In this document: one piece after another, positions 24,111 through 62,298 of the stretch | How positions within the stretch are numbered: position 1 is the first letter of the stretch | Layout of the letters: every line of letters starts with the position of its first letter | Assembly: GCF_002920915.1 (NCBI RefSeq) | Contig: NZ_PQVF01000002.1 | Span: forward strand, 375 to 64,374 | DNA from: Solitalea longa | GTDB taxonomy: Bacteria > Bacteroidota > Bacteroidia > Sphingobacteriales > Sphingobacteriaceae | Length of the DNA: 64,000 nt | Reading direction: 5' to 3' | Made by a program: the position numbers and the translations under genes | Notes under the pieces: model-generated | Told to the model about the DNA's origin: nothing | Databases searched by the model: none | The model's input: the letters and a program-made list of their open reading frames with translations, nothing else

Positions 24111-24120
24111 TGGCTAAACA

Positions 24121-24154
24121 TAAAAGGCGCTTCGTTTCTACGAAGCGCCTTTTA
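24121..24154. terminator. Bidirectional terminator between cfa and ompH2
   Basis: TAAAAGGCGCTTCGT (24121-24135) and ACGAAGCGCCTTTTA (24140-24154) form a perfect 15-bp stem with a TTCT tetraloop; T/A runs on both sides serve both convergent transcripts. Confidence 0.88.
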
Positions 24155-24174
24155 CATAAGGTTTCAACTTTATA

Positions 24175-24684
24175 TTATTGAATACCTAATTTCTTTTTAA
24201 CCAAAGGTAAAATGTTATCACCTTCAGGGAACTGGATCAAAACACCTTTGCTTGAATCAAATACGTAAGCAATGTTATTTTCTTTTGCTACAGTTTTAAT
24301 GGCCTCTTCAGCTTTTTTCAATACAGGAGCATATACTTCTTCTTGTTTTTTGCCGATATCTTGTTGAGCCTTTTGTTGGAACTCACCAATACGTTTTTCT
24401 AAATCCTGAATCTCTTTTACTTTGGTTTCTTTAACTGCGTCAGTCATGGTTTTTTCCTTTGCTTGAAAATCAGCAACCTTAGTCTGATATTCAGTACCCA
24501 TAGTTTTCATTTGAGCATCTAAAGTACCTGCAAAGTCCTGAACAGTTTTATCAGCAACTTTAATATCAGGCATTGCAGCAATTAGCTCATTTACATTAAT
24601 ATGGCCAAATTTAACTTGTGCATTAGCGTTTCCCGCAAAAATCAACAGCACTACCGCCGCTACTAAAACTTTAATTGTCTTCAT
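24175..24684 (-). CDS. OmpH/Skp family periplasmic chaperone
   Basis: A 169-residue Skp/OmpH protein: signal peptide to AQ23, a short beta part (VKFGHINVNELIAAMPDIKVADK), then the long charged coiled-coil arm and a return to VFDSSKGVLIQF at the end. Skp proteins hold outer-membrane proteins in the periplasm. It is the last gene of the operon with uppS, bamA and a paralogue, 45 bp after the latter. Confidence 0.92.
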   Translation of the reverse strand: MKTIKVLVAAVVLLIFAGNANAQVKFGHINVNELIAAMPDIKVADKTVQDFAGTLDAQMKTMGTEYQTKVADFQAKEKTMTDAVKETKVKEIQDLEKRIGEFQQKAQQDIGKKQEEVYAPVLKKAEEAIKTVAKENNIAYVFDSSKGVLIQFPEGDNILPLVKKKLGIQ

Positions 24685-57502: not shown

Positions 57503-58690
57503 ATGATTCCATTACGTCAGTTATTTCTACAACATAACGCACAAACCACCGATTTTCCTTTAATGCTCGAATTCACTAGAGGTGAAGGCATTTATTTGTT
57601 CGACAAAAACAATAAGCCTCATATCGATCTGATCTCAGGAATCGGGGTAAGCAATATAGGCCATTGTCACCCAAAGGTTGTTAATGCAATAAAAACACAA
57701 GCCGAAACCTACATGCACCAAATGGTATATGGAGAGTTCATTCAAGCGCCACAAACAGAATTTGCCAAAAAGCTGGCCGCTCATCTTCCTGAGCAGCTAC
57801 AGTCGGTTTATTTTGTAAACTCAGGTGCCGAAGCTACTGAAGGAGCATTAAAACTAGCGAAGCGTTTTACCGGAAGAACGGAAATTATTGCCTGTAAAAA
57901 TTCGTACCATGGAAGTACAAACGGTGCTTTAAGCGTAATGGGCAATGAGGATTACAAATATGCTTTCAGACCACTTCTGCCTGATATTCGTTTCATCAAC
58001 TTCAATCATTTACCCGATCTTGAATTAATAACCACTAAAACCGCTTGTGTTATTCTCGAAACCATTCAGGGTGAAGCGGGTATTCGCGTACCTTCATTAG
58101 AATATATGCAAGCCTTGAGAAAGCGTTGCACGGAAACAGGTACGCTTTTAATTTTAGATGAGATCCAAGCCGGAATGGGACGCACAGGTAAACTGTTTGC
58201 CTTTGAGCACTTTGGAGTTATTCCTGATGTTTTACTTCTGGCAAAAGCATTAGGGGCCGGAATGCCAATCGGTGCATTTATCTCTTCTAATGAAATCATG
58301 GCTAGCTTAAGAAATGATCCTATTTTGGGCCATGTTACCACTTTTGGAGGGCACCCGGTGTGCTGTGCTGCAGGCTTGGCCGGCTTTGAAGCCTTGCTTG
58401 AAAGCAATTTAATTGAGCAGGTAGAAGCTAAACATCAGCTTTTCAAAGAGCTATTAAACCATCTTGCCATTTTAGATTTCAGAGGAAAAGGATTAATGTT
58501 TACCATTGAGTTTGAAAGTTTCGAATTAAATAAGAAGATCATTGACCGATGTATTGAAAACGGCGTTATCACCGACTGGTTCTTGCATTGTTCAAACTCG
58601 CTAAGAATAGCTCCTCCCCTGATCATTACTGAAGATCAAATCAGAGAGGCATGTGCAATTATTTTGCAAAGCATCAATGAAATAATGTAG
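57503..58690 (+). CDS. Class III PLP aminotransferase (acetylornithine/4-aminobutyrate-like)
   Basis: A 395-residue fold-type I aminotransferase. PLP-binding Lys248 is in LLLAKALGAGMPIGA, the DEIQ motif at 219-222, and YHGSTNGALS in the middle. Bacterial relatives include acetylornithine, putrescine and GABA aminotransferases. No arginine-biosynthesis neighbours are present, so the substrate cannot be fixed. Confidence 0.92.
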   Translation: MIPLRQLFLQHNAQTTDFPLMLEFTRGEGIYLFDKNNKPHIDLISGIGVSNIGHCHPKVVNAIKTQAETYMHQMVYGEFIQAPQTEFAKKLAAHLPEQLQSVYFVNSGAEATEGALKLAKRFTGRTEIIACKNSYHGSTNGALSVMGNEDYKYAFRPLLPDIRFINFNHLPDLELITTKTACVILETIQGEAGIRVPSLEYMQALRKRCTETGTLLILDEIQAGMGRTGKLFAFEHFGVIPDVLLLAKALGAGMPIGAFISSNEIMASLRNDPILGHVTTFGGHPVCCAAGLAGFEALLESNLIEQVEAKHQLFKELLNHLAILDFRGKGLMFTIEFESFELNKKIIDRCIENGVITDWFLHCSNSLRIAPPLIITEDQIREACAIILQSINEIM

Positions 58691-58788
58691 ATTTTAGATT
58701 TACGAAGTACGAAATACAAATGCGTACATTTCTCCTAATTATGAATTTCAAATTCGTACCGCTAAAATTGTACTTCTAACTTTACTAT
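58691..58788. promoter_or_regulatory. AT-rich intergenic region with GTAC palindromes upstream of RR gene
   Basis: Between the aminotransferase stop and the response regulator start lie GAAGTAC at 58700-58709 area and GTACTTC near 58767, inverted copies, plus AAATGCGTACATTT. The block also has AGATTTACGA, shared with the palindrome between RR and kinase genes. It may be the promoter and control region of the two-component operon. Confidence 0.35.
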
Positions 58789-59466
58789 ATGAATGTTTTA
58801 ATTGTTGAAGATCGATATAGCTTATCTGACGAGATTGCCAAGTTTCTAAAACAAGAAGGCTTTTTATGTGATTTAGCCTATAATAAAAAGGAAGCTACTG
58901 AAAAGCTTTTTGTCAATTCGTACGACTTTGTATTGCTTGACTTAGGTTTACCCGATGGCGATGGTTTAGAATTGCTGCAAGAGTTCAGGCAATTACCTAA
59001 CCGGGAAGATGCTGTTATAGTTTTAACTGCACGAGGTGCAACAGAAGACAAGGTAAAGGGCCTAGATTTAGGAGCTGATGATTATTTAAGCAAACCGTTT
59101 GAGCTTTCGGAATTGAACTCGCGCATGCATGCGATACTGCGCAGGAAACATCGTTTGGTTAAAAATGATGTTAACCTGCATGGTTTTGTAATCGACATTC
59201 AAAACAGGGAGGTAAGTTTCAACAACACGAAGATCAGCCTGACAAAGAAAGAATTTGATATTCTTAACTTTTTAATGCTGAATAAAAACAGGGTAATATC
59301 GCGATTGCAGCTTACCGAGCATGTTTGGGGGGATGTTTTGGAAATTAACAGTGATTCGAACTTTGTAGATGTTCATGTTAAGAACCTTCGTAAAAAGCTT
59401 CAGACCCACTCTCCTATCGACTGGTTTGAAACGGTGAGAAGTATAGGATATAAGATAAACCAATAA
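58789..59466 (+). CDS. OmpR-family response regulator
   Basis: A 225-residue regulator. Receiver domain with phospho-acceptor Asp51 (LLDLGLPDGDG), Thr in LTARGA and Lys in LSKPFEL; C-terminal winged helix (about 130-225) with EFDILNFLMLNKNRVISRLQL and VDVHVKNLRKKLQ. Its kinase follows after 67 bp. OmpR-type winged helices bind pairs of direct repeats about 11 bp apart, which is what stands after the kinase gene at 60901. Confidence 0.95.
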   Translation: MNVLIVEDRYSLSDEIAKFLKQEGFLCDLAYNKKEATEKLFVNSYDFVLLDLGLPDGDGLELLQEFRQLPNREDAVIVLTARGATEDKVKGLDLGADDYLSKPFELSELNSRMHAILRRKHRLVKNDVNLHGFVIDIQNREVSFNNTKISLTKKEFDILNFLMLNKNRVISRLQLTEHVWGDVLEINSDSNFVDVHVKNLRKKLQTHSPIDWFETVRSIGYKINQ

Positions 59467-59474
59467 AATTTTTG

Positions 59475-59527
59475 ATTTCAGATTTACGACTTTAGATTTC
59501 GTAAATCCGAAATCGTAAATCTGAAAT
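59475..59527. repeat. Long palindrome between response regulator and kinase genes
   Basis: ATTTCAGATTTACGA (59475-59489) and TCGTAAATCTGAAAT (59513-59527) are perfect 15-bp inverted arms with a 23-base centre that contains a second hairpin (GATTTCG 59495-59501, CGAAATC 59508-59514). TTTACGA in arm 1 can also pair with TCGTAAA at 59499-59505. It ends 6 bases before the kinase start, so it may reduce kinase translation or mark a dispersed palindromic repeat. Confidence 0.7.
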
Positions 59528-59533
59528 TAACAC

Positions 59534-60859
59534 ATGCGCTTACAAGCAAAATTTGCCACTTACAACATCATCACTAAAATAGTCATCATCATTTCGTTGG
59601 CATTGGTTTTTGATTTTGGGGCGAAGCGTGTAGCGTACAACCATCTCGACACACGGATCCTTCAGAAAAAGCAGCAATTCATTAAAAACCTCTCTGGAAA
59701 AGAAATATCGGAATATATCACTGAACAGGATACCGATTTTGCCAGCTACAACGTGCTCAAAGAAGAATATATCTTATTAAAGATCATTCCTCCGGTAAAT
59801 GAGAAGGATAGTATAGGCAATTTTTCGAATGAAGAACGGATCATTGAAAACCAGACCAGTAATTACCGCATATTAACTTATAACTTTGATTTTAATAAAC
59901 AGCAATATCAGTTAGAAATAGGGGAAAGCCTGGCAAGCATCAAGCAGTTTCAGGAAACCTTTCGGAATTATACCTTGTTGGTATTGTTTGTGGCAATTGC
60001 GCTTACACTGATCACTGATTTTCTGTTTACTGGATATCTGCTCAAGCCTTTATCTGCGATCATCAACAGACGTTTAAAAGATGTAAACGATCCATCCCAT
60101 TTCAATTTTGACCCCATTGAAACCAGTACTTCTGATTTTCAACACCTGGATAAACAATTAAAAGAAATGCTAATGCGTATATCAACATCGTTTTATACGC
60201 AAAAGGAATTCATTGCCAATGTATCACACGAAATTTTAACTCCTATTGCCATATTAAAAACCCGTTTCGAAAATTTATTGAACGATGAACGTGTAAGTGA
60301 AGAAGTACAAAACCAGGTTTATTCGTCTTTAAACACATTACACTGGCTAAAAAATGTGGTTAATAGTTTATTGCTCATATCGAAAATTGAAAATGAACAA
60401 TTTGAACAGGAAGATGAGATTGATATTCACAAGCAAATTCAACAGATTAGCGAGGAGGTTGAACATCGACTAGAAGAAAAAAACATTAAACTAGGTCTGC
60501 ATTTATCGCATTCATTCCAATTTAAAGGTAATGAAGCGTTAATCCGAACGATGATCTTTAATGTGGTAACAAATGCTATCAAATACAATCAATTGAACGG
60601 GAGGATAAACATCCTCGACCAAGAGATAAACAGCCATTATGAACTTTTGATAAGTGATACTGGCCTTGGAATTGAGCCAGAACTACTAAAGAATATTTTT
60701 AAGCGATTTGGCAAACCAGCAACTATTGAAGAAAACAGCAATGGGCTGGGTCTTTCTATTGTAAAAACAATCGCCAGCTTTCATAACATTGACGTAAGTA
60801 TCTCCTCTACTCTACACAAAGGAACTACCATAATATTCAAATTTCCAGCAACAGCTTAA
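59534..60859 (+). CDS. Membrane sensor histidine kinase
   Basis: A 441-residue kinase. Two membrane helices (about 11-30 and 146-168) enclose a periplasmic sensor of about 115 residues; no obvious HAMP. The H-box is SHEILTPIA with His232. The ATPase domain carries NVVTNAIKYN, DTGLGIEPE and GLGLSIVKTI. It pairs with the OmpR-type regulator upstream. Stimulus unknown. Confidence 0.93.
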   Translation: MRLQAKFATYNIITKIVIIISLALVFDFGAKRVAYNHLDTRILQKKQQFIKNLSGKEISEYITEQDTDFASYNVLKEEYILLKIIPPVNEKDSIGNFSNEERIIENQTSNYRILTYNFDFNKQQYQLEIGESLASIKQFQETFRNYTLLVLFVAIALTLITDFLFTGYLLKPLSAIINRRLKDVNDPSHFNFDPIETSTSDFQHLDKQLKEMLMRISTSFYTQKEFIANVSHEILTPIAILKTRFENLLNDERVSEEVQNQVYSSLNTLHWLKNVVNSLLLISKIENEQFEQEDEIDIHKQIQQISEEVEHRLEEKNIKLGLHLSHSFQFKGNEALIRTMIFNVVTNAIKYNQLNGRINILDQEINSHYELLISDTGLGIEPELLKNIFKRFGKPATIEENSNGLGLSIVKTIASFHNIDVSISSTLHKGTTIIFKFPATA

Positions 60860-60901
60860 CAGGCAATCAAACCACCGAATTTCTTATTCAAAAAAACTGA
60901 A

Positions 60902-60919
60902 TCTTCATAAAATCTTCAT
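60902..60919 (+). promoter_or_regulatory. 11-bp-period direct repeat, putative OmpR-type regulator site
   Basis: TCTTCAT at 60902-60908 and again at 60913-60919, with AAAA between them: two identical 7-mers with 4-base spacing, the layout of PhoB/OmpR-type operators. It is placed just after the kinase gene and before the micro-ORF locus. The match to this regulator is inferred. Confidence 0.5.
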
Positions 60920-61021
60920 GTAATAAGCTGACCTTAGACTCAACAATACAATGGTAATCATAAAGATTACACCTTTAAAACGTGAATAAGCAGTTTTAGA
61001 TCAAACAAAAAAACACAAAAA

Positions 61022-61081
61022 ATGGTAGCGGAAGCTACAATAACGAAACCTAAAACTCCATACAGTTCATTAGGTAATTAA
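61022..61081 (+). CDS. Micro-ORF, 19 residues, putative
   Basis: The frame encodes MVAEATITKPKTPYSSLGN and then TAA. It is preceded by a long A-rich stretch, the type of leader that favours translation in Bacteroidota, and is followed 12 bases later by a strong terminator. It has no membrane helix and is too short for domain assignment. It may be a secreted or regulatory peptide, or chance within a small RNA. A second tiny frame lies at 60951-60989. Confidence 0.35.
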   Translation: MVAEATITKPKTPYSSLGN

Positions 61082-61093
61082 TAGTAGAAGAGG

Positions 61094-61126
61094 GCCTGTT
61101 TGCATACCAGCAAACGGGCTTTTTTT
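61094..61126 (+). terminator. Strong intrinsic terminator after the micro-ORF
   Basis: GCCTGTTTGC (61094-61103) and GCAAACGGGC (61110-61119) pair over 10 bp (one G-T) with a 6-base loop and seven T (61120-61126). No ordinary gene ends just before it; the nearest upstream stop on the plus strand is the kinase, 234 bp away. Confidence 0.92.
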
Positions 61127-61213
61127 CTGAAATTTAATTGATTTTTAAAGGCCATCAAGAACCCACTAATTAGCGTTCATGGCTGTTGGTATATTTTTTA
61201 TTTCATGTGGGTT

Positions 61214-62116
61214 TTACATCATCTTATTCCGTTTTACCAAATAGGCATTCAACACCGGATAAAAGCCTTCATTAATATCAGCATCAATGTAATCGATACG
61301 ATATTGCGCACATTTAAGCATCAGGTTATACTTATACTCTGTAATGGCTTTTAAATACGACTCTTTAACCTGGCCCGGCTGAACTTTGATTTCTTCACCA
61401 CTTTCCGTGTCAATAAACAGGTAAGGACGATTTTCAAATCGAAACTCTTGTTCCGAACGCTTATCGGTTACGTTAAAAAGCACCACCTCATGTTTATTGT
61501 GTTTCAAATGGTTAAGCGCTGAAAAAACTGCTTCCGTGTCTTCTGCACTTTCCATCATATCACTGAAAATAACCACCATTGAACGTTTATGAATATTCTC
61601 GGCAATTTCATGTAGCGAAGTGACCAATGAAGTATTTCGGTTTTTTGGCTTATCGGCCATCAATTTTTCTAATTCGAAATAAACAAAGCGTTGATGGGCG
61701 GTAGTAGATTTGGCCTGAGTGGATAATAATACCTTATCAGAAAAAACGCTTAATCCGAAGGCATCGCGCTGACGTTTCAGCAGATTGATCAATGATGCCG
61801 CGCAATATACTGAAAACTGCAGCTTATTTTTTTCTCCTTCGGGATAATACATAGACGAAGAAGCATCAATAATCAACTGGCAGCGCAAATTAGTTTCTTC
61901 TTCAAACCGCTTGGTGAACAAACGGTCGGTGCGACCAAACAATTTCCAATCGATATTTTTTACTGATTCGCCGGTATTATATAAGCGATGCTCGGCAAAT
62001 TCAACCGAAAACCCATGAAACGGACTTTTGTGCAAACCGGTAATAAAACCCTCCACCACCTGGTTGGCCAATAGTTCAAGGTTTATTTGTTGAAGTTCTT
62101 CTTTGTTTTCGAGCAT
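61214..62116 (-). CDS. DUF58 (vWA-like) protein
   Basis: A 300-residue DUF58 protein; start at MLENKEELQQ is preferred to a longer frame. Signature GESVKNIDWKLFGRTDRLFTKRFEEE and vWA-like LIIDASSSMYYP (MIDAS DxSxS) are present. Such proteins normally work with a MoxR ATPase, which is not in this window. It has no membrane segment here. Confidence 0.9.
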   Translation of the reverse strand: MLENKEELQQINLELLANQVVEGFITGLHKSPFHGFSVEFAEHRLYNTGESVKNIDWKLFGRTDRLFTKRFEEETNLRCQLIIDASSSMYYPEGEKNKLQFSVYCAASLINLLKRQRDAFGLSVFSDKVLLSTQAKSTTAHQRFVYFELEKLMADKPKNRNTSLVTSLHEIAENIHKRSMVVIFSDMMESAEDTEAVFSALNHLKHNKHEVVLFNVTDKRSEQEFRFENRPYLFIDTESGEEIKVQPGQVKESYLKAITEYKYNLMLKCAQYRIDYIDADINEGFYPVLNAYLVKRNKMM

Positions 62117-62250
62117 CGTTGTTGAGATAAGAGATATGGGATTTGAGATATGCAAATCACTTTTCGTTTGAAAACGAATTAGGATAAACGCAAATAGCTA
62201 TCAAATTTCATTCATTCAAATATAACCTTAAGAATGTATTCTGAAAACAA

Positions 62251-62280
62251 AAATGGCCTTGGAAAAATCCAAGGCCATTT
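62251..62280 (-). terminator. Intrinsic terminator after thioredoxin gene
   Basis: AAATGGCCTTGGA (62251-62263) and TCCAAGGCCATTT (62268-62280) form a perfect 13-bp stem with an AAAA loop. On the minus strand it is followed by a T-rich stretch, ending trxA. Confidence 0.88.
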
Positions 62281-62298
62281 AATTAGTGCTTTATATGA

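Follow-up and report, generated by a model that had tools for sequence, protein, structure and literature searches.

A probable decayed target unit downstream of a two-component system in Solitalea longa and its possible retention as a 3'-end small RNA

Introduction

What, if anything, is made from the gap that follows a two-component kinase gene in Solitalea longa? The window analyzed here, the whole stretch of 64,000 nucleotides, carries a response regulator gene and a sensor kinase gene, and no ORF of at least 60 amino acids lies between the kinase stop (position 60859) and a convergent DUF58 gene (61214 to 62155, minus strand).

Results

The response regulator (225 amino acids; 58789 to 59466, plus strand), the presumed activator, has the receiver domain and the winged-helix domain of the OmpR/PhoB type (Pfam Response_reg, 4.5e-25; Trans_reg_C, 2.3e-23), and its best NCBIfam model is PmrA, at 181 bits, under the cutoff of 330. 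The kinase (441 amino acids; 59534 to 60859, plus strand) has the Pfam domains HisKA and HATPase_c, and the PorY family (NCBIfam NF052314) is its nearest family only, at 236 bits, under the curated cutoff of 350. The Solitalea comparison comprised four genomes: G000, which is that of the window; G001, from S. agri, which is the closest; G002; and G003. Kinase orthologues are present in all four, with 67 to 91% identity in the other three, and the order of regulator/kinase pair, gap, and convergent DUF58 gene is kept in all of them. The AT-rich stretch between regulator and kinase (59467 to 59533; TTTCAGATTTACGA...TCGTAAATCTGAAA) is palindrome-like and poorly conserved in relatives, and it is perhaps a small repeat element.

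The first-pass annotation of the gap had noted two copies of TCTTCAT with AAAA between them. This direct repeat of 11-bp period, the presumed response-regulator box, lies at 60902 to 60919 on the plus strand (half-sites 60902 to 60908 and 60913 to 60919) and is conserved throughout Solitalea, each of the four genomes having TCTTCAT-N4-TCTTCAT after this kinase. By itself the repeat appears modest, and relatives are needed to tell signal from noise; when the gap is shuffled, 14% of the resulting sequences contain identical 7-mers 8 to 13 bp apart. A scan for sigma-70-type promoters gave no match on the plus strand. No clear -7 element had been recognized before, and this is partly answered by CTTAG at 60933 to 60937 (plus strand), which sits 13 nt past the box in the slot that holds NTTTG in relatives and is off this family consensus by one mismatch.

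The wider survey took in 107 kinase loci, an uneven sample taken from the best kinase matches, and a box was scored when it lay within 350 nt of the kinase, as in 65 loci; the other 42 have none nearby. Across the 65 box loci, NTTTG peaks sharply 13 nt after the box, a slot that played no part in picking boxes, and its fixed columns are T in 63, T in 63, T in 56, and G in 56. The composite pattern of box and -7 element was found in 59 of 301 genomes, with 0 for the reversed control, and a regulator-driven promoter unit is well supported by these comparisons. Because the box, its 13-nt spacing, and the -7 element are found again and again behind this kinase in the family, the box is presumed to be a regulator site, and the adjacent regulator probably drives the window transcript, as the annotation had proposed. 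The direct repeat is very likely the site of this OmpR-type protein; 11-bp direct repeats suit OmpR-type dimers. That the box serves some other regulator is unlikely: the 42 loci without a nearby box and the occurrence of box and -7 element elsewhere, for example, before outer-membrane-protein genes, fit such a reading, but the box recurs directly behind this kinase in several genera, and its period matches that expected of the adjacent regulator's type. A DNA search outside Solitalea returned only chance-level matches, and in Hymenobacter, with a kinase 41% identical, the inspected stretch behind the kinase has no box-and-gene unit.

The box and -7 element occur at further sites in the same genome, and a small regulon of this regulator is therefore probable. 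One site (G000:C32:158789) precedes a short, apparently noncoding stretch that contains TAGTTTAGTTTTCCGG as well as an internal hairpin and a terminator (L196:1501-1640; C32:158783-158928); this stretch, its S. agri counterpart (L201) included, is a candidate stand-alone small RNA (sRNA) under the box, and it has no DNA match in G002 or G003. Another site (G000:C34:268483; L200) lies upstream of a gene for a membrane-anchored protein of at least 493 amino acids, which, judged by eye, resembles an enzyme of the glycosyl hydrolase 18 type, and similar sites are present in S. agri, G002, and G003. In g13 genomes (L239 to L242 and L245 to L247), the box and -7 element stand away from the kinase locus, before a gene for a TonB/SusC-like outer membrane protein with a long leader.

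What once followed the box in Solitalea can be read from the relatives. In G002 and G003, an intact gene for a secreted protein of 70 and 90 residues lies directly after it (MKKFMALVALAAFTTGAFAQ... and MKKLMLMVAIAAFSTGVFAQ...), S. agri has a longer, frame-broken copy in which the decayed signal-peptide region is still recognizable, and in the window most of the coding sequence is deleted. Alignments with these relatives place the remnant of the gene for this small Lys/Ala-rich protein at 60938 to 61057 (plus strand). A protein-profile search of the four genomes found full-length matches only in G002 and G003, at the kinase locus; in G000 and G001 even the best match is partial, and neither genome has a full-length match elsewhere. 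On comparison of the four loci, there is good support for the window stretch being a relic of a secreted-protein gene.

Both short ORFs of the first-pass annotation, one of 12 and one of 19 residues, the latter with an A-rich leader, are present in the sequence. The 12-codon ORF (MVIIKITPLKRE; 60951 to 60989, plus strand), which falls within the decayed part, lacks conservation. The 19-codon ORF (MVAEATITKPKTPYSSLGN; 61022 to 61081, plus strand) joins ancestral C-terminal codons (..TKPK..) to the old 3' untranslated region (UTR): positions 61058 to 61060 are CCA in the window and a TAA stop in G002, so that the C-terminal stub reads into the former 3' UTR and gives the 19-codon ORF. The proposal that it is a functional micro-peptide consequently gives way to that of an unconserved tail of a destroyed gene. 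Feedback on the kinase by a 19-residue regulatory peptide is highly improbable; the ORF exists behind its leader, and some OmpR-type systems do have small feedback peptides, but in the alignment S. agri has no ATG in its frame, the ORF is absent from G002 and G003, a larger gene reduced to a stub accounts for it, and 38% of shuffles of 60901 to 61126 contain an ATG ORF of 19 or more codons. Among relatives, the repeat (kept in Solitalea) and the hairpin (in the three aligned genomes) are conserved, and the ORF is not; the tiny peptide is less important than the promoter slot.

Small Lys/Ala-rich secreted proteins are encoded at 27 of the 65 box loci, and the 38 loci without such a gene take in the two Solitalea relics along with about seven variants that are weaker. 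In the seven mature secreted proteins tested, aromatic residues number 0, lysine makes up 21 to 34%, and the pI is at least 10; the two scanned against Pfam (E up to 0.1) matched no family. Within clades of protein-type loci, the 3' UTR can be steadier than the protein C termini, with CACCTCGTTAAGAACTATAGCC common to six loci whose C termini vary. To judge from the aligned loci, this conservation is clade specific, with no single motif across all of them.

In the window, the former 3' UTR includes a conserved stretch at 61060 to 61096 (plus strand), the candidate body of a 3'-end sRNA, which is identical to G002 at 37 of 37 nt and is the only run of at least 25 nt identical to G002 in the DNA between genes around the regulator; other intergenic gaps are 40 to 60% identical between the two, and genes are 66 to 77% identical. 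The 3' UTR of G003 differs from that of the window. The strong hairpin and T7 terminator of the first-pass annotation are confirmed as an intrinsic terminator at 61094 to 61126 (plus strand), with a 10-bp stem (61094 to 61103 and 61110 to 61119) and the T7 run at 61120 to 61126, and it is present in all three aligned Solitalea genomes. The fold z-score of 60935 to 61130 is -5.9, to which, on the predicted structure, the terminator hairpin is judged to be the main contributor.

The perfect match of the 3' tail in the window to that of S. agri was not taken as a sign of selection, since other blocks are equally conserved, some of them inside genes. Window positions 58658 to 58931, 61046 to 61240, and 62176 to 62289 are about 98% identical to S. 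agri, where genes are 84 to 90% identical; these blocks suggest a mosaic, possibly produced by recombination. In G002, transposase-like ORFs of the insertion-sequence type stand directly past the terminator (L080:1859-3006).

In genus g14, which is probably Mucilaginibacter, the promoter slot holds only a conserved RNA-like unit of about 70 nt without a protein gene. It consists of unpaired AGTTTTAGTTTCGAGTTACCCCTATT followed by a terminator in which 9 of 11 pairs show compensatory changes, and it has an invariant GTTTTAG and a near-invariant GTTACCCCTA. R1, a model of this RNA, finds the unit at the kinase locus of 24 g14 genomes with 60 to 80 bits, and no other match exceeds 47 bits; most of these 24 genomes fed the model, and the scores are therefore partly by construction, the single location being the independent part. 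R1 picks up the 3' UTRs of the protein-type loci L131, L088, and L132 as well, and a model built from g14 only finds the motif in them at 38, 32, and 28 bits, respectively. In the window, R1 gives a weak match of 14 bits, to the terminator part only, and the family motif GTTACCC was not found; a further weak match (22 bits) at 24119 to 24177 on the minus strand is probably due to chance. A second group of loci (L120, L125, L181 to L183, and L185) has a unit of about 120 nt with TTTAGTTTTCCGGTTACC. No match above the gathering score was obtained with the covariance models of Rfam 15, in which the g14 RNA is absent, and the unit in the g14 promoter slot has the look of a small regulatory RNA not yet described. 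Across genomes, the 13-mer TTTAGTTTTCCGG shows no enrichment, so that the motif appears to matter only beside the box, and no sRNA targets are proposed, as the 11-mer complementary to the g14 motif shows no clear enrichment over the reversed control. The sRNA output foreseen by the first-pass annotation is supported in relatives, as a conserved RNA unit in g14, and only inferred in this strain.

Two readings would do without an sRNA in the window. The first, in which the 3' stretch only terminates the kinase operon or ends the convergent DUF58 mRNA, is quite unlikely; the terminator does sit between convergent genes, and in several g14 genomes its T-run adjoins the DUF58 stop, but the upstream box and -7 element and the relatives' invariant unpaired motif 5' of the hairpin are left unexplained by it. 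The second, a pure relic with a dead coding sequence, a box and terminator that simply linger, and no functional product, is a good deal more credible, though it falls short of an even chance, and it opposes the sRNA step alone and not the relic step. It is in keeping with the destruction of the coding region in the window and S. agri, with the off-consensus -7 element, and with the presence elsewhere in both genomes of the candidate RNA of L196/L201, which has the same box and could carry the RNA function. Against it stand the perfect box in the window and the identity of the 3' UTR to G002, far above the intergenic background.

Discussion

We consider it likely that positions 60902 to 61126 are a target unit of the two-component system immediately upstream, with a decayed coding part and a possible 3'-end sRNA. 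The phosphorylated OmpR-type regulator would bind TCTTCAT-N4-TCTTCAT, covering the -33 region, and bring RNA polymerase to the -7 element, 13 nt past the box. The ancestral product would have been an mRNA for a small exported Lys/Ala-rich basic protein, probably disordered, with a conserved 3' UTR closing in the terminator. In the window strain and S. agri, the coding sequence would have decayed, leaving the box, the 3' UTR, and the terminator; the unit would now yield at most an RNA of about 180 nt, whose conserved 3' part may work as a base-pairing sRNA. On genome comparison alone, the box and its spacing, the former coding sequence and its decay, the conservation of the 3' UTR, and the relatives' RNA-like unit can be read directly, and from them we infer that the adjacent regulator binds, that this strain transcribes the unit, and that the RNA acts as an sRNA and has targets. 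Retention of function as a 3'-end sRNA in this strain is possible, and the off-consensus CTTAG, the lack of GTTACCC in the window, and the differing 3' UTR of G003 count against this explanation as a whole. Only four Solitalea genomes were compared, and the coding sequence may have decayed too recently for them to reveal what selection keeps. A broader proposal, which we advance tentatively and at less than even confidence, is that the slot switches its output across the family between a secreted-protein mRNA whose 3' end provides a functional sRNA and a stand-alone sRNA of a family not yet described, the Solitalea lineage having lost the coding part and kept the sRNA.

Several known systems resemble parts of this unit. 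OmrA and OmrB are OmpR-regulated sRNAs, and the RNA considered here likewise would be short, with an unpaired 5' motif, a terminator, and an OmpR-type regulator, but no sequence relation is seen, Rfam gives no match, and the phylum is different. The acid-shock protein Asr of Escherichia coli is basic and exported. It is activated by the OmpR-type regulator RstA (PMC11135836). The secreted proteins described here are, like Asr, rich in lysine and alanine and without aromatic residues, but they have no Pfam match, and their genomic context differs.

In Bacteroides thetaiotaomicron, of the same phylum, the available part of one report describes UTR-derived sRNA candidates, to which the unit studied here bears a likeness, and a -7 consensus of TAnnTTTG, and no comparable two-component-linked case was found in that part (PMC7366714). 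A literature search on small RNAs of Pedobacter with two-component systems found none. The unit would be a candidate sRNA output of a Bacteroidota two-component regulon, a link not found described in the literature searched, and it offers a testable regulon of this kind in the phylum.

The closest parallel is CpxP/CpxQ of the Enterobacteriales, in which, according to the available portions of the sources, an sRNA arises from the cpxP 3' UTR, which is better conserved than the remainder of the gene (PMC4817254, PMC9438474). As far as those portions describe it, the arrangement is alike, with a response regulator acting on the mRNA of a small exported protein whose 3' UTR outconserves the coding part: a regulator box and promoter precede such a gene in G002, G003, and other genera, the gene being lost in the window, and the 3' UTR is the more conserved part against G002 and in the six loci sharing CACCTCGTTAAGAACTATAGCC, with G003 differing. 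Unlike CpxP, the secreted protein has no Pfam match (two scanned) and no shown kinship with CpxP, and its coding part can be wholly missing, of which no case was found for CpxP/CpxQ in the portions of the sources available. The box, the -7 element, and the 3' UTR of the window are best described as what remains of a response-regulator target, perhaps retained in the form of a CpxQ-like 3'-end sRNA, and the loci together form a natural series, from protein with 3' UTR through decayed coding sequence to RNA alone, which bears on how a 3'-end sRNA could turn into a free-standing sRNA gene.
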